Shown here piece by piece: positions 1 to 14,415 of a stretch of DNA of 64,000 nt. The stretch comes from Streptomyces formicae (GTDB lineage: Bacteria; Actinomycetota; Actinomycetes; Streptomycetales; Streptomycetaceae). How positions within the stretch are numbered: the stretch's first letter is position 1; each line of letters begins with the position of its first letter. Where the stretch lies: positions 8,472,001 through 8,536,000 of the forward strand of contig NZ_CP022685.1 of assembly GCF_002556545.1 (NCBI RefSeq), read 5' to 3'. The notes below the pieces were generated by a model. It was not told the DNA's origin. It saw only the letters and a list, made by a program, of their open reading frames with translations, and ran no database searches. The position numbers and the translations under genes are program-made.

Positions 1-806
1 AGGCTGCGCCAGCGCATGGTGACGAGGCGCGCCCCGGTGAAGGTGGAGCGGATCCCGCTCTGCTCCCGCGCCGCGAGGAAGCACAGGCTGGTGGAGTCCA
101 TGCCGCCCGACAGGTCCGCGCTCACCGTGCCGCCGCCCGCCGTGCAGCTGCCCACCGCGGCGCTCAGCGCGTCGCGCACCGCGGGCACGCCCTGTCGCCA
201 CCCGAGCTCGGGATCGGGAGGGGTCCACCAGCGGCGGGTGGTGGCACGCCCTTCCGCGTCGAGCAGCAGGGAGTCGGAGGAGGGCAGGGCGTGCACGCCC
301 TGCCAGACGCAGCGGTCGTCCAGCGGATAGGGGAGGGGAGAGGCCAACAGATGGGCGGCCAGCAGTCGTTCGTCAGGACTCGCGCCCGTCAGCGCGGCGA
401 GCCGGTCCGACCTGTCGGCGGCCACCGTCACCCCGGCCACGCGCGTGTGGAAGAGCCGCCGCACCCCGGACGCGCTGCCCCTGGCGAGGACCGCGCCCTC
501 CGCCGAGGCGAGGAGGTGGAAGCTGCCGTGCAGCCCTTGGGCGACGCGCTCCACGTCCCCGACGCCGCGCAGCCGCCCCATGCGCGCGGAGAGGGTGTCG
601 GCGGTGACGGGACACCGTCCGACCACCGCAACTCGCCGCGCCCCTGCCACTCCCACCGTCACATGACCCTGCGGCCAACTGCCCAGCAGCCAGGGCCGAC
701 CTGAGTCGTGCGTGACGGTGTCGGTGATCCAGGGGCGCAGGAGCTGTGCCGCGGCCACGCCGGCTGCGCCGTCCGGGAGGACGGCGAACCACACGTCACC
801 ACTCAT
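1..806 (-). CDS. Lasso peptide macrocyclase (asparagine synthetase B-like), 3' part outside window
   Basis: Reading the minus strand from ATG at 806 gives 268 codons open to the left edge. The N-terminal half looks like a degenerate glutaminase-type domain. The PP-loop of the AsnB synthetase domain follows near residue 235 (SADLSGGMDSTSLCF, with SGGxDS). In lasso clusters this protein adenylates the Asp/Glu side chain of the core and closes the macrolactam. The gene lies 42 nt downstream of the lasso precursor on the same strand, in the precursor-cyclase order common in actinobacteria. RRE, leader peptidase and exporter genes would be expected beyond the edge. No strong ribosome site precedes 806, so translational coupling is likely. 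A primary-metabolism AsnB is less likely because the protein does not begin with the Cys of a class II amidotransferase. Confidence 0.85.
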   Translation of the reverse strand, partial: MSGDVWFAVLPDGAAGVAAAQLLRPWITDTVTHDSGRPWLLGSWPQGHVTVGVAGARRVAVVGRCPVTADTLSARMGRLRGVGDVERVAQGLHGSFHLLASAEGAVLARGSASGVRRLFHTRVAGVTVAADRSDRLAALTGASPDERLLAAHLLASPLPYPLDDRCVWQGVHALPSSDSLLLDAEGRATTRRWWTPPDPELGWRQGVPAVRDALSAAVGSCTAGGGTVSADLSGGMDSTSLCFLAAREQSGIRSTFTGARLVTMRWRS

Positions 807-848
807 GGCATGTCACCCGTCATAGATCCGTCGTTGAAGAGGCTTCGA

Positions 849-986
849 TCAGCTGGGGCCGAGGTACCACTCGTAAGGCGGGAACCCGCCTTCGTAGAAC
901 GCACCCAGTGCCTCACCGCGCGTCAGCTCGGCGAAGTCGCCGACCTCCACCATCGCCGGTGGTTGGTAGATCTCCTCGTGCTCCAT
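849..986 (-). CDS. Lasso peptide precursor (45 aa)
   Basis: A 45-codon ORF starts at ATG 986, 6 nt after a GGGGAGG ribosome site, and stops at 849-851. The leader carries YQPPAMVEVGDFAELT, matching the lasso leader signature Y-x2-P-x-hydrophobic-x3-G-x5-T that the RRE binds, with Thr at position -2. Cleavage after TR would release a 22-residue core starting with Gly. The ring segment is GEALGAFYE, with Glu at position 9 as acceptor for a nine-residue macrolactam, and the tail is GGFPPYEWYLGPS. There are no Cys, so it would be a class II lasso peptide. The bulky plug would be among Tyr15, Trp17 and Tyr18. I do not recognise the core as any named lasso peptide. Calculated monoisotopic mass of the cyclised core is about 2388.07 Da. 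Confidence 0.88.
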   Translation of the reverse strand: MEHEEIYQPPAMVEVGDFAELTRGEALGAFYEGGFPPYEWYLGPS

Positions 987-1024
987 GGAGAACCTCCCCT
1001 TCCTTCTGGTTGCTTCCGGTGTCC

Positions 1025-1065
1025 GTGCGGGGGATCCGCACTCGGCCGGAAAATGCCCAGGGCAT
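1025..1065. promoter_or_regulatory. Two palindromes in the leader region upstream of the lasso precursor
   Basis: Between the lasso precursor (start 986, minus) and the divergent ROK gene (start 1284) lie two perfect inverted repeats. GTGCGG/CCGCAC occupies 1025-1030 and 1036-1041, and ATGCCC-A-GGGCAT occupies 1053-1065. They lie 40-80 nt upstream of the precursor start. They could be operators or hairpins in the transcript leader. No clear -35/-10 pair could be assigned. Confidence 0.35.
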
Positions 1066-1283
1066 GCACCACTACGCCCAGCAGGGTGATTTGTCGCCCG
1101 AATGAGTGAATAAGGGTGTGTTTCAGAAGGTGCGCCCGGCGCTCACACCGGCGCTGCCCCGGGGGTTCCGTGGCCGGACGAGTTATGCAAAGGTCCTCAA
1201 TAATTTCGGTGCGCGGCAGGGCAAGAAGCCCGTTCACCGGGTCAACCATGCTGCCCCGGTGGCGAATTCGAGGTGAAGTACTG

Positions 1284-2414
1284 ATGCGAAACGGGGCACG
1301 CGGCCACGATCTGCTCGCGCTGCGGCGGCTCAACACCACCGTCGTGCTGCGCGCCCTGCACCGCCGCAGCCCCCGCACCCTCGCCGAACTCGCCGCCGAC
1401 ACCGGCCTGTCCAGGCCGACGGTGGAGGCGGCCGTCGAGGAACTCGCCGAACGGGGACTCGTCGGGGAGGCCGCCGAGGAGTCCGGCGAACGGCCGCCCG
1501 GCCGCCCCGCGCGCCGGTTCCGCTTCCGTACGGAGGCCGGTCACGTGCTCGGCGTCGACATCGGGCTGCACAAGATGGTGCTGCTCATCGCCGACCTCGG
1601 CGGCACCGTCATCGCTGCCCAGCGCACCTCCCTGGAGCCCGAGTCGAGCGGCAGCGCCCGCCTGGACCTGCTGCGCGACGGCATGGAGTCCTTCCTCGAC
1701 GCCCACGCGCCGCGCGACGGGGTCCTCGCCCGCTGCGTGGGCGTGCCCGGCATGGTGGACGCGGCCGGGGTCATCACCTCCGTCGTGATCCCCGAGTGGT
1801 CGGGCGTCGACCTCGGGCGGCTGCTTCCCGACGGCGGCACGGGTCCCACCCTGATCGAGAACGACGTCAACCTCGCGGTGCTCGCCGAACGCTGGCAGGG
1901 CGCCGCCACCCTGGTCGGCGACGTCGTCTGCGTGCTCACAGGACACCGCGTCTCCTGCGGACTCACCATCGACGGGCGGCTGCACCGGGGCAGGCGCGGC
2001 GGCGCGGGGGAGCTCGGCATGCTGCCGCTGCTCGGCATGAGCGGTGCCCAGGACGCCCTGCGCTGGCCGGGCGCGCTGCGCGCGGGCGAGTCCGAAGTGG
2101 CGGCGCTCGCCCGCGCGGCGGACGCCGCGGACCCGCGCGCCCTGGCCGCCGTCGCGGACTTCGCGGACCGCATAGCCCCGGGCATCGCGGCGATCTCGCT
2201 GGCCGTCGACCCGGAACTGCTCGTGCTGACCGGCGGGGCCACCCCGGTAGGCGGCCATCTGGTGCCGCTTCTTGCGGACCGGCTGCGCCCCATGACCCTG
2301 CACGTCCCGCGCATCGCCCTGAGCCCGCTCGGCGACCGGGGCGTGGCCATCGGCGCCGTGCGCAAGGCGCTCGACCAGGTGGAGGAGGAACTGCTCGGAG
2401 ACATGGCGTCGTAG
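1284..2414 (+). CDS. ROK-family transcriptional regulator (NagC/XylR type)
   Basis: The protein has 376 residues. An N-terminal winged helix (about residues 14-60, TLAELAADTGLSRPTVEAAVEELAERGLV) precedes a ROK sugar-kinase-like fold starting near residue 88 (VLGVDIGLHKMVLLIADLGG). The usual ROK zinc motif CxCGxxGC is absent, so it probably acts only as a sugar-sensing repressor. Start: ATG 1284 is chosen over an open extension back to 1116 because AGGTGA lies 7 nt upstream and homology begins here. It precedes the sugar ABC operon in the same direction and probably represses it. The effector sugar cannot be told from sequence. Confidence 0.85.
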   Translation: MRNGARGHDLLALRRLNTTVVLRALHRRSPRTLAELAADTGLSRPTVEAAVEELAERGLVGEAAEESGERPPGRPARRFRFRTEAGHVLGVDIGLHKMVLLIADLGGTVIAAQRTSLEPESSGSARLDLLRDGMESFLDAHAPRDGVLARCVGVPGMVDAAGVITSVVIPEWSGVDLGRLLPDGGTGPTLIENDVNLAVLAERWQGAATLVGDVVCVLTGHRVSCGLTIDGRLHRGRRGGAGELGMLPLLGMSGAQDALRWPGALRAGESEVAALARAADAADPRALAAVADFADRIAPGIAAISLAVDPELLVLTGGATPVGGHLVPLLADRLRPMTLHVPRIALSPLGDRGVAIGAVRKALDQVEEELLGDMAS

Positions 2415-2480: not shown

Positions 2481-3737
2481 ATGCGCAGAAGGACTCTGCT
2501 CGGCGGGGCGTTGGCGGCCCCCTTGCTCGCCGCCTGCTCCGGCGGGGGCGACGACACGGACGGCGGGGGCGGCACCACCCTCACGTACGGAATGTGGGAC
2601 CCGGCGCAGGTGCCGGGCATGAAGAAGATCATCGCCGCGTTCCGCAAGGAGCATCCTCGAATATCCGTACGGATCGAGCTCACGCCCTGGGCGACGTACT
2701 GGACCACCCTGAAGACGTCGATGAGGGGCGGCACCGCGCCCGACGTGTTCTGGATGAACGCCGTCAACTTCCAGCTGTACGCGGCCAACGGCGTCCTCGA
2801 ACCGCTCTCCGGGCACATCAGGAGCGACCGGACGCCCGTCGGCAGCCACCCCGAGGCGCTGGTGAAGCTCTACGCGTACGAGGGCACGCAGTACGGGCTG
2901 CCCAAGGACTTCGACACCATCGGCCTCTGGTACAACAAGGCGCTCTTCGACAAGGCGGGCATCACGTACCCGGACGAGAGCTGGACCTGGGACGACGTGC
3001 GCGACGCGGCGGCCGAACTCACCGACCCGCACGAGCGCGTGCACGGATTCGCCGCCGAGATGGACCGGCAGGGCAAGATCTACCCCGCCGTCTGCGGCGC
3101 CGACGGATACGTCCTGAAGGACGGCCGGTCCGGCTTCGGCGAGGAACGGTCCATCGAGGGCCTGCGCTTCCTGACCGACATGGTCGACCGGGGCTGGTCC
3201 CCGCCGCAGAGCGCGATGGTCGAGTCCGTCGGACGCGTGCGCTACTGGTCGGAGAAGGTCGCCATGAACTACGACCTCTCCGCGATGGCGGGACAGATGT
3301 ACGCCGTGCCCGCGCTCAAGGACCACGGCGGCATCGCCGTCCTGCCCAAGGGGCGCCGCAGGGCCACCATCATCCACGGCCTGGCCAACGTCATCTCCGC
3401 CAAGAGCCGCAAGAAGGCCGCCGCCTGGCAGTTCGTCCACTTCATGGCGGGCAGGGAAGCCGCCGAGATCCAGGCGAGGGAGGGCGTCACCATCTCCTCG
3501 TACGCGGGAACGCAGGACGCCTGGCTCACATCGATGCCCGAATTCGACCTGAAGCACTTCATCGAGATGCAGAAGTACGCCGTCCCGTATCCGAGCTCCA
3601 AGAACACCGCCGTCTGGGAGAACCTCCAATACCCGATCCTCGGCGCCGCGTTCAGCGGAAAGGGCGGCATCGAGAGCGCGGCCCGCAAGCTCGGCGGACA
3701 GATGGACAGGGCCCTGAAGGAGGAGCGCGCCGTATGA
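2481..3737 (+). CDS. Sugar ABC transporter substrate-binding lipoprotein
   Basis: The protein has 418 residues and belongs to the extracellular solute-binding family 1 (MalE/UgpB-like). The N-terminus has twin arginines (MRRRTLLGGALAAPLLAAC) and ends in the lipobox LAAC, so it is a lipid-anchored, possibly Tat-exported binding protein. Typical family elements follow: GMWDPAQVPGMKKIIAAFRKEHP, TAPDVFWMNA and a C-terminal segment ending in helices. It is the first gene of an uptake operon and overlaps the next gene by ATGA at 3734. The ligand is unknown; the two downstream Gfo/Idh/MocA dehydrogenases suggest an inositol-like polyol or a sugar/sugar acid. Confidence 0.9.
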   Translation: MRRRTLLGGALAAPLLAACSGGGDDTDGGGGTTLTYGMWDPAQVPGMKKIIAAFRKEHPRISVRIELTPWATYWTTLKTSMRGGTAPDVFWMNAVNFQLYAANGVLEPLSGHIRSDRTPVGSHPEALVKLYAYEGTQYGLPKDFDTIGLWYNKALFDKAGITYPDESWTWDDVRDAAAELTDPHERVHGFAAEMDRQGKIYPAVCGADGYVLKDGRSGFGEERSIEGLRFLTDMVDRGWSPPQSAMVESVGRVRYWSEKVAMNYDLSAMAGQMYAVPALKDHGGIAVLPKGRRRATIIHGLANVISAKSRKKAAAWQFVHFMAGREAAEIQAREGVTISSYAGTQDAWLTSMPEFDLKHFIEMQKYAVPYPSSKNTAVWENLQYPILGAAFSGKGGIESAARKLGGQMDRALKEERAV

Positions 3738-4678
3738 GTGTCTTTCCCGCCACGGCCGCCGCGAAGGCGAAGGAGCGCCGCGCCTCCGCCGCCGCACCGC
3801 GCCCGGGCTCCCGCAACCAGCGCGCCGCCTACTGGTTCATCGCACCGCTCGGCATCGGCTTCGCCCTCTTCTACTTCTGGCCGCTGCTCCAGACCTTCTA
3901 CTTCAGCTTCACGGAATTCGGCGCGTTCGGCGGCCACACGTTCATCGGCACCGACAACTACGCCCGGGTGATCCAGGACGTCACCGTCTGGCAGGCGCTC
4001 GTCAACACGCTCATCTACAGCGTCATCGGACTCACCGCGCTGCCGATCGCGATCGTCGTCGCGTCCCTCCTGAACCGGCGCGGACTGCGCGGCGTCTCCG
4101 TCTACCGGGCCCTGTACTTCGTGCCGTTCGTGACGCTTCCCGTCGCCGTCGGCCTCGTCTGGAACTGGCTCTACAACGGCGACTTCGGACTCCTCAACGA
4201 AATCCTCGGATGGTTCGGCGTCGACCGTCACTACTGGGTCTCCGACCCGTCCACCGCCGTCTACGCGATCGGCACGGTGATGGTCTGGTCGACCACCGGC
4301 TACTACTTGATCATCTTCATGGCGGGCATCAAGGGAATTCCGCAGGACTACTACGAAGCCGCGGAACTCGACGGGGCGGGGGCGCTGCGCAGGTTCTTCA
4401 CCATCACGCTGCCGCTGCTCAGCCCGACCCTCTTCTTCGCCTCCATCATCTGCATGATCAATTCACTGCAGACCTTCGACCTGATCTACATCATGATGGG
4501 CGAGAAGAACCCCGCGATCGGCGATACGCAGTCTGTCGTCGGCCTCTTCTACAAATGGGCCTTCATCGAGAACGCGCAGGGCGCGGCCGCCGCGCTCGCC
4601 TTCCTGCTCATGGTGGTCATCGCCGCCCTCACTTATCTCCAGTTCAGGCTCCAGAAGAGGTGGGTGCACTATGCCTGA
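3734..4678 (+). CDS. Sugar ABC transporter permease (MalF-like)
   Basis: The protein has 314 residues and about six membrane helices. A soluble N-terminus is followed by YWFIAPLGIGFALFYFWPLL, and the EAA loop that contacts the ATPase reads EAAELDGAGALRRFFTITLPLLSP. The start is the ATG overlapping the stop of the binding protein gene (ATGA), implying translational coupling. It forms a heterodimer with the next permease. No ATPase gene is present in the operon; in Streptomyces such transporters are usually served by the shared ATPase MsiK. Confidence 0.9.
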   Translation: MSVFPATAAAKAKERRASAAAPRPGSRNQRAAYWFIAPLGIGFALFYFWPLLQTFYFSFTEFGAFGGHTFIGTDNYARVIQDVTVWQALVNTLIYSVIGLTALPIAIVVASLLNRRGLRGVSVYRALYFVPFVTLPVAVGLVWNWLYNGDFGLLNEILGWFGVDRHYWVSDPSTAVYAIGTVMVWSTTGYYLIIFMAGIKGIPQDYYEAAELDGAGALRRFFTITLPLLSPTLFFASIICMINSLQTFDLIYIMMGEKNPAIGDTQSVVGLFYKWAFIENAQGAAAALAFLLMVVIAALTYLQFRLQKRWVHYA

Positions 4679-5540
4679 CACCCAAGAGCACATGGCGCCG
4701 ATACGGCCCAGGAACAAGAAGCGGGTGACCGCGGGGTCCCTCGCCACCCACGCCGTGCTCTCGTTCGGCGCGCTGGTGATGGTCTTCCCGTTCTTCTGGC
4801 AACTGCTCACCGCGCTCAAGACCCTCGCGGAGACCTCCCGGGTGCCGCCCACGTTCCTGCCCGACGACTGGAACTGGCGGAGTTTCGACGACGTCTTCAC
4901 CGGCCTGCCCTTCCGGGAGATGCTCACCAACAGCGTCATCAACACCGTCGGCCGCACCCTGGGCCAACTGGTGTTCTGCTCCCTGGCCGCCTACGCGTTC
5001 GCGCGCATGCAGTTCCGGGGCCGCAACGTCCTGTTCGCGCTCTTCCTCTCCGTCCTGATGGTGCCGAGCTCGCTGCTCGTGCTCCCGCAGTACGACATCA
5101 TCCAGCGGTTCGGCCTGCTCAACTCCGCGCCCGCGCTGTTCCTGCCCGGCATGTTCAGCGCGTTCGGCACCTTCATGCTCCGCCAGTTCTTCCTCACGCT
5201 GCCCAAGGAACTGGAGGAGGCCGCCCGCATCGACGGCGCGGGATCCTTCCGGATCTTCTGGTCCATCATGCTGCCGCTGATCCGGCCCGCGCTCGCCGCG
5301 CTCGCCGTCATCACCGCCATGTGGTCCTGGAACGACCTGCTGTGGCCGCTGGTCGTCAACACCGACCCGGAGAAGATGCCGATCAGCGCGGGACTCACCT
5401 CCCTGGAGGGGCAGTTCGAGACCAACTACCCGGTGATGATGGCCGGTTCGCTCGTCGCGAGCCTGCCCATGCTGCTCGTCTACCTCTTCCTCCAGCGGCA
5501 TTTCGTCCAGAGCGTCGCCCTCTCAGGATCCAAGAGCTGA
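4671..5540 (+). CDS. Sugar ABC transporter permease (MalG-like)
   Basis: The protein has 289 residues with six predicted membrane spans and the second EAA loop (EEAARIDGAGSFRIFWSIMLPLIRPALAAL). It overlaps the MalF-like gene by 8 nt, so it is co-translated. It is the partner permease of the same importer. A 36-nt gap containing CAGGAAGG (about 15 nt before the next start) separates it from the first oxidoreductase. Confidence 0.9.
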   Translation: MPDTQEHMAPIRPRNKKRVTAGSLATHAVLSFGALVMVFPFFWQLLTALKTLAETSRVPPTFLPDDWNWRSFDDVFTGLPFREMLTNSVINTVGRTLGQLVFCSLAAYAFARMQFRGRNVLFALFLSVLMVPSSLLVLPQYDIIQRFGLLNSAPALFLPGMFSAFGTFMLRQFFLTLPKELEEAARIDGAGSFRIFWSIMLPLIRPALAALAVITAMWSWNDLLWPLVVNTDPEKMPISAGLTSLEGQFETNYPVMMAGSLVASLPMLLVYLFLQRHFVQSVALSGSKS

Positions 5541-10665: not shown

Positions 10666-12185
10666 TGCGAACGCGCACGCGAGGAACGCTCGCGGCCGTG
10701 ACGGCGGGCGCCGCCCTGCTCTCGCTGGTGGCCTGCTCGTCGGGCGAGCGGGGCGAGCAGGGCGGCCAGGGCAGTCAGGGCACCGAGAAGCGCGGAGCCG
10801 AGCGGCAGCAGCGGATCGGCTGGAAGCCCTGTCCGGCCGACGCGACGGAGGGCGCGCCCAAGGGCGCCGAGTGCGGCACCGTCCGCGTCCCCGTGGACTG
10901 GACCGCGCCGGGCGGCGAGAAGCTCGACGTCGCGGTGGTGCGCAGGAAGGCGACCCGCAAGGACCAGCGCATCGGCACCCTGATGTTCCTGCCCGGCGGA
11001 CCCGGCAACTCCGGTGTCCAGAACGTGGCGCAGACCAAGGAGTGGGGCGGCGCCGAACACCGCTTCGACATCGTCAGCTTCGACCCGCGCGGCACCGGCC
11101 TCAGCAGCCCCGTCCAGTGCCCCGCGGGACCGCTGGCCGAGATGATCACGGACAAGCGGCCCGCCACGACGCCCGGCGACTTCGGGCGGCTGAAGAAGCG
11201 CGCCACCGCCCTGGCCGCAGGCTGTGCCCGTGCGTCCGGAGCGGTGACCGGGCACACCGACGCGAGCAGCGTCAGCCGCGACATGGACGCCATCCGCGCC
11301 GCGCTCGGCGCGGACCGGATCTCCCTCTACGGTCATTCGTACGGCACGGTCTACGGCCAGCGCTATGCCGCGATGCACGGCGACCGGGTGCGCGCCGCCG
11401 TCCTCGACGGCGTCATGGACCCCGCGATCGGCCGCCGGGCCTTCGGCGTCACCGGGGCGAAGGCGCTGGAGGGCGCCTTCGGCGAGTTCGCCCGGTGGTG
11501 CGAGCGCTCGCGCGACTGCGAGCTGGGGGAGCGGGACGCCTGGCGGGTGTACGAGGGCCTCGCCGCGCGGGCCGCCGGAGGGAAGCTGCGCAACGGCGGC
11601 AAGGACGTGCCGCTCGCCGAGCTCAACGGCACGATCGACGCGATGCTCCTCACCCCGTCCTGGCCCGCCGCCGCCCAGTACCTTCACGCCCTGGACACCG
11701 GGAAGCCGTGGGAGACGGACGAGGGCGACGCCCCGCCCGACGAGAAGCTGCTGCCCGGCGCCGATCTGTCCGTCTGCGCCGATCTGAGCCTGCGCGCCCC
11801 GAACGCCGCGGCCTACCTCGCCGACCGGCGGGCGGCCCACGAGGCCGCGCCCCGCTTCGGCTACTCCCCGAACACCGTGTCGTACGCGAACCTCTGCCAG
11901 GGCCTCCCCGCCCCCGAAGGCCCGTCGACGGAGCAGGTCCGCACGGACACGCCCCTGCTCCTGATCGGCGCCCGGTACGACAACGCGACGCCGCTGGACT
12001 GGGCGCGTTCCGCGCAGCGGCGGCTCGGGGACCGGGCGGCGCTCGTCGAGGTGAAGGGCTGGGGCCACGCCGTGAAGATCTTCAACGGCGGTGCCGAGCG
12101 GGACACGGTCCTGCGGTACCTCACGGACCTCGACGTGCCGAAGCCCGGAACCGTCATCGACGGAGCCACCCCACCCGGAGCCTAG
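10665..12185 (+). CDS. Secreted alpha/beta-hydrolase lipoprotein, S33 tripeptidyl aminopeptidase family
   Basis: The protein has 506 residues with lipobox LVAC after a short signal (MRTRTRGTLAAVTAGAALLSLVAC). The oxyanion region is FLPGGPGNSG, the nucleophile elbow GHSYGT (Ser), the acid is in LLLIGARYDNATP, and the His is in VKGWGHAV. A C-terminal TAP-like segment follows. This arrangement matches Streptomyces SlpD/SlpE/Tap mycelium-associated aminopeptidases that remove N-terminal peptides outside the cell. ATG 10665 overlaps the previous stop (TGATG). The stop codon lies within the left end of a MITE-like element, so the C-terminus may have been shaped by that insertion. Confidence 0.85.
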   Translation: MRTRTRGTLAAVTAGAALLSLVACSSGERGEQGGQGSQGTEKRGAERQQRIGWKPCPADATEGAPKGAECGTVRVPVDWTAPGGEKLDVAVVRRKATRKDQRIGTLMFLPGGPGNSGVQNVAQTKEWGGAEHRFDIVSFDPRGTGLSSPVQCPAGPLAEMITDKRPATTPGDFGRLKKRATALAAGCARASGAVTGHTDASSVSRDMDAIRAALGADRISLYGHSYGTVYGQRYAAMHGDRVRAAVLDGVMDPAIGRRAFGVTGAKALEGAFGEFARWCERSRDCELGERDAWRVYEGLAARAAGGKLRNGGKDVPLAELNGTIDAMLLTPSWPAAAQYLHALDTGKPWETDEGDAPPDEKLLPGADLSVCADLSLRAPNAAAYLADRRAAHEAAPRFGYSPNTVSYANLCQGLPAPEGPSTEQVRTDTPLLLIGARYDNATPLDWARSAQRRLGDRAALVEVKGWGHAVKIFNGGAERDTVLRYLTDLDVPKPGTVIDGATPPGA

Positions 12186-12411
12186 GGCCTGTCCGGCGGA
12201 TCATGGCGCTGTCGCGGGGTCTGGCACGCACTCCCCCAAGCTCTCGGCTCCGCTCGAGCAGGGAGGTACCCCCTCCGGCGTTGTCGTCGGTTGCCAACGC
12301 TCCGCGTTGCCGCCCTCCTCCGCCTTGCAGCTGCACGCACCAGACCCCGCTCGCCTGCACCGGACGGTGGACGCCACCCGAGCGCGCCCTGATCCGCCGG
12401 ACAGACCCTAG
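12182..12411. mobile_element. MITE-like 230-bp element with 22-bp terminal inverted repeats
   Basis: The ends are CTAGGG(C/T)CTGTCCGGCGGA followed by TCA, at 12182-12203 and inverted at 12390-12411, with 21 of 22 bases matching. A second nested inverted repeat (GCGGGGTCTG against CAGACCCCGC) lies inside, followed by the palindromic stretch ACTCCCCCAAGCTCTCGGC, a type common between Streptomyces genes. It holds no transposase. The left end supplies the TAG stop of the upstream peptidase. Mobilisation would need a transposase acting in trans. Confidence 0.7.
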
Positions 12412-12517
12412 CCCCGCGGCGTAGGAGCCCTCCGACCGGAGTCGGATCCGGAGCGGATCGGGCGGGTATTAGCGTGGTCGGGACAGATTGACGACAAGGA
12501 TCCGAGGTGCCCGGCCC

Positions 12518-13876
12518 ATGCCAAGCCGCAGCGAGAACCGTACCGAGCTCATCGAGTCACTCATGGAGCGGTTCCCGAACGTGCCGCGGGAAGCCGTGAT
12601 CAAGGAGGACCTGCTGCGCGGCGGGATCGCCTTCGACGAGTCGGCGCTCAGCGACAACGAGGGCGGCGAGGTCAAGCCGAAGTCGTACTTCATCTTCTCC
12701 TTCGACCACGGCACCCTGCCCGAACTGGGCGCCGCGGCCCTGCGCCGCCCGCCCGAGGAGATCGTCCTCACCGGCGGCCCCTACGAACTGCGCCGCACCG
12801 TCGTCTCGGTCCGCGTGAACCCGGCGTCGCCCTACCGGGTCGCGGCCGACGACGACGGAGTGCTCGGCCTCTACCTGGACGGCGCGCGGATCTCCGACGT
12901 CGGCCTGCCGCCGATGCCGGACTACTACCGGCACACCCTGGAGAACGGCAAGTCCGTGATGGAGGTGGCGCCCACCATCCAGTGGGGCTACCTGATCTAC
13001 CTGACGGTCTTCCGGGTCTGCCAGTACTTCGGCGCCAAGGAGGAGTGCCAGTACTGCGACATCAACCACAACTGGCGCCAGCAGAAGGCGGCGGGCCGCC
13101 CCTACACCGGTGTGAAGCCGATGGACGAGGTCCTCGAAGCCCTCGCCATCATCGACAAGTACGACACGAACAAGTCCTCCACCGCGTACACGCTCACCGG
13201 TGGCGCCATCACCACGCAGCTCCAGGGCAAGGACGAGGCCGACTTCTACGGCCAGTACGCGAAGGCCATCGAGGAGCGCTTCCCCGGCCGCTGGATCGGC
13301 AAGGTCGTCGCCCAGGCCCTGCCCAAGGCGGACGTGCAGCGCTTCCACGACTACGGCGTGCGGATCTACCACCCCAACTACGAGGTGTGGGACCCGTACC
13401 TGTTCGAGCGCTACTGCCCCGGCAAGGAGCGCTACGTCGGCCGTGACGAGTGGCACCGCCGCATCCTGGACTCCGCAGACGTCTTCGGGCCGCGCAACGT
13501 CATCCCGAACTTCGTGGCGGGCGTGGAGATGGCGGAGCCCTTCGGCTTCAAGACCGTCGGCGAGGCCATCGACTCCACCGTCGAGGGCCTGCAGTACTTC
13601 ATGTCGCGCGGCATCACGCCCCGCTTCACCACCTGGTGCCCGGAGCCCACGACGCCGCTGGGCAAGGCCAATCCGCAGGGCGCCCCGCTGGAGTACCACG
13701 TGCGGCTCCTTGAGGCCTACCGCGCGACGATGGAGGCCAACGGCCTTTCCTCGCCCCCCGGTTACGGCCCCGCCGGACCCGGCAACGCGGTGTTCTCGGT
13801 GAGCTCCTTCATGGACAGCCTGCCCGCGGAGAAGGCCGCTCCGGAGGACGCCGTTATCCCGGCGACGCCCCAGTAG
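12518..13876 (+). CDS. Radical SAM protein with C-x8-C-x2-C cluster motif
   Basis: The protein has 452 residues. The putative [4Fe-4S] ligands are CQYFGAKEECQYCD (about residue 168), spaced C-x8-C-x2-C instead of the classical C-x3-C-x2-C. The aromatic before the last Cys and TLTGGAITTQ (a GGE-like SAM-binding strand) support the assignment. C-terminal conserved Trp/Cys in FTTWCPEPTTPLGKANPQ resembles metabolic radical SAM enzymes. ATG 12518 lies about 10 nt after GAGGT. It is monocistronic between the MITE and the SAM-IV riboswitch. The reaction is unknown; no RiPP precursor or partner enzyme is adjacent. Confidence 0.8.
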   Translation: MPSRSENRTELIESLMERFPNVPREAVIKEDLLRGGIAFDESALSDNEGGEVKPKSYFIFSFDHGTLPELGAAALRRPPEEIVLTGGPYELRRTVVSVRVNPASPYRVAADDDGVLGLYLDGARISDVGLPPMPDYYRHTLENGKSVMEVAPTIQWGYLIYLTVFRVCQYFGAKEECQYCDINHNWRQQKAAGRPYTGVKPMDEVLEALAIIDKYDTNKSSTAYTLTGGAITTQLQGKDEADFYGQYAKAIEERFPGRWIGKVVAQALPKADVQRFHDYGVRIYHPNYEVWDPYLFERYCPGKERYVGRDEWHRRILDSADVFGPRNVIPNFVAGVEMAEPFGFKTVGEAIDSTVEGLQYFMSRGITPRFTTWCPEPTTPLGKANPQGAPLEYHVRLLEAYRATMEANGLSSPPGYGPAGPGNAVFSVSSFMDSLPAEKAAPEDAVIPATPQ

Positions 13877-13891
13877 AGCCGTGTTACGGTC

Positions 13892-14031
13892 GGGGCGGGT
13901 CACGAGTTCCAGCGTCAAGCCCCGGCTGGCTGGACGGCACCCCGCTCCGTCGCGGGTGCCCCGGGTGACGACCCGCCCCGCGCGAGGCGCGCGGGGAACG
14001 GCGGATCACCGGGGCCGGTTCCCGGGGTCCA
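13892..14031 (+). promoter_or_regulatory. SAM-IV riboswitch
   Basis: The closing helix is GGGGCGGGTC (13892-13901) with GACCCGCCCC (13970-13979). Inside it are AGCGTCAAGCCCCGGCTGGC, then TGGACGGC, a hairpin GCACCCCGC..GCGGGTGC, and CCGGGTGACGACC. These match the SAM-IV aptamer consensus (AGCGUCAAGCCCCGGCUnGCUGG and GGGUGCCCCGGGUGAnGACC) known from Streptomyces and mycobacteria. A GGGAAC/GTTCCC pair further down and the GGAGG at 14042-14046 could form the expression platform. It should lower expression of the downstream 121-aa gene, and possibly the SDR, when S-adenosylmethionine is high. Confidence 0.85.
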
Positions 14032-14049
14032 CGACTCCGGAGGCGCTCC

Positions 14050-14415
14050 ATGACGCACCCGCACACCATCTGCGACCACGACACCTGCGAAGCCCGCACG
14101 CCGGGACACCAGGTCCACTGGATCCAGGCCCGCGACAGCGCGAAGGACCCGGGGCCGCTCGTCGACGTGCTGCTCTCCTCGCACGACGTACGGGACGACG
14201 GCCGCATCGCCCTCCATGTGCTCGGCCCGACCCGGGGCGTGCCCGCCACGCTGTGGACGCACGACCCGGGACGGCTGCGCGGGCTGCTGCGCGAGCACCG
14301 GGGCCTCGCCCAGTGGCAGCCCCGCTGGAACCTGCTCCGGCTGCGGCGCGACACCGTCGCCACCACGCTGGTCTGCGTGGCACCCGACGGGGAGCCCGCC
14401 GCCCCTGGCCGCTGA
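14050..14415 (+). CDS. Uncharacterised 121-aa protein under SAM-IV riboswitch control
   Basis: The start at ATG 14050 follows GGAGG by about 3 nt. The N-terminus holds a Cys/His-rich cluster (HPHTICDHDTCEARTPGHQVHW) that could bind metal. The rest is a compact alpha/beta sequence (RIALHVLGPTRGVPATLWTHDP...) with no recognised family. It is preceded by a SAM-IV riboswitch, so its expression should follow methionine/SAM status. It could be a small regulatory or repair protein of sulfur metabolism. No function is assigned. Confidence 0.75.
   Translation: MTHPHTICDHDTCEARTPGHQVHWIQARDSAKDPGPLVDVLLSSHDVRDDGRIALHVLGPTRGVPATLWTHDPGRLRGLLREHRGLAQWQPRWNLLRLRRDTVATTLVCVAPDGEPAAPGR

Follow-up and report, generated by a model that had tools for sequence, protein, structure and literature searches.

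The window, that is, the whole 64,000-nucleotide stretch of Streptomyces formicae DNA analysed here (G000:C1:8472001-8536000), begins within a predicted lasso peptide gene cluster, which continues leftwards into the flanking stretch L008 of the same genome (G000), a single contig of 9.61 Mb. Four genes are read from one strand in the order A-C-B1-B2, and the gene of an ABC transporter, D, is convergent on B2; gene A occupies positions 16850-16987 of L008, on the same strand as C, B1 and B2. The features are as follows.

Window 849..986, minus strand: gene A, lasso precursor of 45 aa, MEHEEIYQPPAMVEVGDFAELTRGEALGAFYEGGFPPYEWYLGPS; from the open reading frame, NF033521 and homologues.
Window 918..986, minus strand: leader, residues 1-23, ending in Thr(-2) and Arg(-1); from conservation, with a predicted cleavage site.
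Window 852..917, minus strand: core of 22 residues, GEALGAFYEGGFPPYEWYLGPS, with predicted ring Gly1-Glu9 and tail 10-22; from conservation and the acidic position 9.
Window 987..1165, minus strand: partly conserved upstream region of A, possibly a promoter region; from the alignment of 14 loci.
L008:14900-16807 (G000:C1:8470899-8472806), minus strand: gene C, AsnB-like lasso cyclase, 635 aa; PF00733.
L008:14640-14903, minus strand: gene B1, RRE protein, 87 aa; NF033530 and TfuB1.
L008:14200-14643, minus strand: gene B2, leader peptidase, 147 aa; NF033537.
L008:12279-14162, plus strand: gene D, ABC transporter, with a putative start; PF00005.

The product of gene A scores 35.2 bits against the NCBIfam model NF033521 (lasso_leader_L3; cut-off 19) and carries the lasso leader motif together with threonine at position -2, which is T22 of the precursor. 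A loose form of the leader pattern occurs a single time across all six reading frames of the 64 kb, and 100 dinucleotide resamples together yielded one occurrence, which gives a chance expectation of about 0.01 per window. Y7, P10, G16, F18 and R23 of the leader are invariant among 13 aligned precursors, and T22 is kept in 90% or more of them. The core lacks Lys; it also lacks Cys and hence a disulfide, the feature by which class II lasso peptides are defined in PMC13352647, and its Glu9 falls within core positions 7-9, where Asp or Glu acts as ring acceptor according to PMC9266682. No sigma-70-like site was found upstream of A by the promoter scan, and the promoter and terminator scan returned nothing useful.

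Only the 5' part of gene C lies in the window (1..806, minus strand), where an open reading frame cut by the edge (3-806) gives the first 268 residues. A and C are spaced by 42 bases, while C and B1, as well as B1 and B2, overlap by four bases. C matches PF00733 with 132.8 bits (cut-off 21); G234, G235, D237 and S238 of the PP-loop, D354, E355 and the C-terminal K551 are invariant in 12 aligned cyclases, and K551 is presumably the catalytic lysine, by comparison with AsnB and beta-lactam synthetase. The profile match of C to beta-lactam synthetase (PDB 1jgt) is a remote alignment, and a single-sequence search of the PDB with C gave nothing informative. B1 scores 86.5 bits against NCBIfam NF033530 (cut-off 70), matches PF05402 in Pfam and is a homologue of TfuB1 (PDB 6jx3, chain 6jx3_B; E 8.5e-13 over residues 4-77), which we take to be the leader-binding protein of the fusilassin/fuscanodin lasso system; the fusilassin core is not known to be related to GEALGAFYEGGFPPYEWYLGPS. 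B2, for which a single gene was found in the window genome, is a transglutaminase-like leader peptidase by its score of 119.9 bits against NF033537 (cut-off 33), and matches PF13471; its C77 and H109 are invariant in eight aligned sequences, and the only match in a single-sequence PDB search was weak and unrelated.

The longest frame of D spans 11982-14162 (726 aa), and its relatives point to a start near 12279. D matches PF00005 with 98.6 bits, and also PF13304; no membrane-domain model of Pfam was matched and no NCBIfam cut-off was passed among the 25 families listed, so that the label of exporter derives from its overall likeness to full-length permease/ATPase proteins. In PMC13352647, PMC9266682 and PMC7549694, ABC transporters are tied to export, self-immunity or antibacterial activity.

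The first-pass annotation, made from the window, had described a 45-residue precursor with the leader signature and Thr(-2), as now borne out by the model score, and a cyclised mass of 2388.07 Da (M+H 2389.08), recomputed here as 2388.074 Da ([M+H]+ 2389.081). It had placed the cyclase directly after A, which holds, but the region that it described contains only part of the protein. It had proposed looking to the left for an RRE protein, a leader peptidase and an exporter, and had named as refutation the lack of an RRE protein and peptidase within about 5 kb; this did not occur, for B1 and B2 end at most 2.8 kb from the start of A, and D at most 4.8 kb. The C-terminal synthetase residues that it expected in the AsnB-like protein are also retained, including K551.

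AsnB-like matches at 9.44 Mb in the same genome were rejected as a second lasso locus, being sited in a clavam-type cluster (L009, G000:C1:9434000-9450000). This cluster contains a clavaminate synthase Cs1 match (557.9 bits, cut-off 450) and ArgJ above its cut-off, besides AsnB-like and acetolactate-synthase-like proteins, both below cut-offs, which we take to be a beta-lactam synthetase and a CEA synthase.

Twelve homologous precursors of A were found at 76-89% identity, one of them a 29-aa partial sequence (P0012), and nine bear the NCBI name 'lasso RiPP family leader peptide-containing protein'. The NCBI-named precursors of S. diastatochromogenes, S. spectabilis, S. phaeochromogenes and other Streptomyces thus belong to the same family; they differ from A at core position 7, at the last residue and by a few further changes, and the listing names no product. 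The core consensus is GEALGAxYEGGFPPYEWYLGPx, with F, H, Y, R, N or Q allowed at position 7 and S, N or A at the end; the other positions are mostly near-fixed, P0010 and P0011 being the most divergent. A sample of 392 genomes of the genus gave a precursor match at E 0.01 or better in 37, six of which, the window genome included, hold the close family. The core had been called unfamiliar: indeed, no named product with it was found in open-access main texts (supplementary genome-mining tables may list it) or in the PDB, where a sequence search with the core returned nothing, a weak test for 22 residues; the precursor family, however, is already annotated in public genomes, and is therefore not new to databases. 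In the main texts searched, longer core strings were absent and a six-letter string occurred only in papers without lasso titles.

In the wider family, a stretch of S. mashuensis (L084:10001-10465, identical to L068) codes for three different lasso precursors in a row beside a single C-B1-B2 set. L066 (G337), L069 (G089) and L071 (G186) each hold a precursor and a cyclase, and comparison of the surrounding stretch with the window proteins revealed neither B1 nor B2; B2 genes lie elsewhere in G337 and G186, and the sole B2 match of G089 has an internal stop. These loci may use B proteins in trans or may be dead.

Leader, B1 and B2 score above NCBIfam cut-offs, B1 matches TfuB1, and all but one of the 14 close-family loci keep A, C, B1 and B2 side by side. 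On these grounds, together with the dN/dS values and the acidic core position 9 given below, we assign a probability of about 0.93 to a complete class II lasso peptide cluster, A-C-B1-B2 with convergent D, whose product has a Gly1-Glu9 ring; what counts against it is the score of C below the cut-off of the cyclase model discussed below, the broken genes in relatives, the one homologue of 12 (P0008) with Ile instead of Thr at -2, and the ten of 50 distinct cores without an acidic residue at position 9. B1 would bind the leader, and B2, with Thr(-2) as its guide, would cleave behind Arg(-1); C would then use ATP to activate the Glu9 side chain and link it to the Gly1 amine so that the ring encloses the threaded tail. 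This would most likely give an unmodified lasso of 22 residues, nine of them in the ring, whose Pro-Pro/aromatic tail offers Tyr15, Trp17 or Tyr18 as possible plugs. D would probably export the peptide and may give immunity; as for its role, antibacterial action or signalling between actinomycetes may be guessed. The cluster, almost certainly real, is an ordinary addition to a class of bacterial natural products that is well known; mildly surprising features are how strictly the core is conserved and that D was lost repeatedly.

The ring, proposed in the first-pass annotation, gains from comparison of 50 distinct cores, which were chosen by leader pattern (Thr or Ile required at -2) from the listed loci, the shortened L065 core and the fused L082 core being among them. 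Position 9 is Asp or Glu in 40, position 8 is acidic in seven more and position 7 in one, leaving two with no acidic residue at any of the three; the exchange of Glu and Asp at position 9 is the best support from sequence for a Gly1-Glu9 ring. An unthreaded macrolactam, or closure through another acceptor such as Glu16, is very unlikely: threading is not visible from sequence, and Glu2 and Glu16 are likewise conserved in the close family, but among the 41 cores not beginning with GEA position 9 is Glu in eight and Asp in 24, whereas position 16 is acidic in just four, and Glu16 is replaced by Asp in P0010. Even less probable is a further modification such as the acetylation that albusnodin carries on a conserved Lys. 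The best NCBIfam model for C is indeed that of the albusnodin/ikarugamycin cyclases (NF033561), and A weakly matches the albusnodin precursor model NF033525, yet both scores fall below the cut-offs (253.8 of 300 and 17.9 of 30 bits, respectively), which places the cluster outside the albusnodin family; moreover, the core offers no Lys to acetylate and no extra gene lies between A and B2.

A different question is whether the window strain makes any peptide at all, and here the state of the genes in relatives is relevant. The 14 loci compared are the window, L065 (G128) and 12 of 35 listed loci (L072-L082 and L085), the other 23 belonging to the wider family and standing outside the count. Twelve of them have an uninterrupted A of 45 codons; in L065 it has a stop at codon 40, and in L082 (S. 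flavofungini) the core is truncated and continues into D sequence. No C, B1 or B2 was found in L082 either. A full-length C is present in 11 loci; that of L078 has a stop at codon 472 and that of L081 a frameshift. Many of the named records being draft contigs, an isolated frameshift or stop may be an error, whereas remnants and absences are harder to explain in this way; the broken genes of L065, L078, L081 and L082 reflect either decay of part of the family or draft errors. A silent or decaying cluster in the window strain is nevertheless unlikely: A or C is broken, or C missing, in four of the 14 loci, and D is broken, remnant or missing in nine of 13, but the window genome keeps an open frame for each of A, C, B1, B2 and D, and purifying selection on the core is strong across the family.

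Indeed, pooled pairwise Nei-Gojobori dN/dS values, calculated with no tree over 13 loci (L082 was left out throughout, and L078 and L081 also for C), are 0.097 for the 22 codons of the core (ring 0.16, tail 0.05), 0.30 for the leader, 0.49 for B1 and 0.31 for B2, and 0.31 for C in 11 loci. In the four loci with open D, D has a value of 0.16, close to that of the whole of A (0.15) in the same loci. The core is therefore the most constrained part of the cluster, under strong purifying selection in the close family, and a tail so strongly conserved points to a single conserved target for the peptide. The complete cluster, with its predicted mass, adds to the class a core almost fixed in many Streptomyces species, as would fit a specific conserved target.

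The surroundings of the genes differ among the loci. L073, L075, L082 and L085 have both flanks in common and therefore occupy one site, where L073 lacks D and L082 lacks C, B1 and B2. In the remaining loci, the same-strand matches listed at more than 150 bases reach no further than some 155-180 bases upstream of A on one side, and on the other they stop within D or where it ends; the upstream comparison covered 1.5 kb for the window and 0.9-1.0 kb for L074 and L079, and the downstream one was cut in L076 and L079. For the window itself, no pairwise match above 150 bases was found in the upstream region 987..1165 in the 14-locus comparison. A cassette in differing surroundings suggests horizontal transfer. 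Beside A, the translations of the window indicate a ROK-type regulator (1116-2414, plus strand) and a sugar ABC-transport operon (2481-5540, plus strand); no counterpart of the ROK-type frame was found in those loci of relatives with which it was compared. At the contig end in Streptomyces sp. uw30 (L079:1-1122), part of the precursor start occurs again in inverted orientation, with 98% identity over 124 bases; this is either an inverted duplication or an assembly artefact.

D varies in state among the loci. Of the 13 loci holding A, C, B1 and B2, four have it open (the window, L074, L075 of S. aureoverticillatus, and L076), two frameshifted (L079 and L085) and four as a 3' remnant (L065, L072, L077 and L078), while in three (L073, L080 and L081) it was not found. 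Repeated loss of D is probable, because on a tree of C, B1 and B2 its states need seven changes for five groups (outgroup counted), and L077, with a remnant, is sister to L074, with open D (support 100/99). In the same tree L075 stands apart from L073 and L085 despite the common flanks, the L073-L085 pair being weak (82/74). For L080 and L081, which branch off deepest, D may have been absent from the start. The remnants in L065, L072, L077 and L078, whose surroundings differ, may simply mark the edge of transferred DNA; this reading hardly fits L073, since both its flanks are shared with L075 and L085 and D is missing between them.

Loci devoid of the transporter offer a natural test of the need for export. 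In proteobacteria, most clusters without a transporter carry an isopeptidase, according to PMC7549694. An unlinked D homologue of 76-77% identity is present in the genomes of L073, where D is absent, and L078, where it is a remnant, and the best one reaches 44-46% in those of L065, L072, L077, L080 and L081 (90 candidates scored per genome); such homologues make a stand-in exporter possible in some D-deficient genomes. As the core is the most constrained part while D was apparently lost more than once, a speculative and rather doubtful proposal is that this lasso family needs no dedicated exporter, the peptide acting inside the producer, or having a target that requires no export-based immunity, or leaving by another exporter, with the transporter family of D found elsewhere in an undescribed system of an AsnB-like protein and a 42-aa peptide.

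Among the matches listed, D homologues form a group at 84-91% identity, followed by many at 72-80%. In two loci reached through these relatives, a D homologue is accompanied by an AsnB-like protein, a peptide of 42 aa and a regulator of the NsdA family that is read divergently:

L122:4427-9713: the set of Streptomyces sp. ISL-98.
L123:2387-7664: the set of S. aureocirculatus.

In the two cases for which it was measured, the transporter shares 76-77% identity with the lasso-linked D, and the AsnB-like protein of L122 has 526 residues and the PP-loop SGGKDS. The latter protein has a match at 1e-60 in 13 of 199 genomes of the genus, the window genome not being among them. One locus was examined in each of four of these 13: peptide, AsnB-like protein and transporter lie in a row in L139, L140 and L141, and L142 has neither peptide nor transporter, so that the set of three is present in five of six loci with L122 and L123 counted. 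In L141 the regulator is only weakly similar, and L123 and L140 each have an interruption in the AsnB-like frame. No RRE or leader-peptidase model matched the four L122 proteins scanned, and three strings of the 42-aa peptide do not occur in the open-access main texts searched. These genes, outside the window, may represent an undescribed AsnB-dependent peptide system. The 18 homologues of the peptide are called 'hypothetical protein' or are unnamed; PWESVFAGP is invariant in the 19 aligned rows and the SDQGRFED end is largely fixed.
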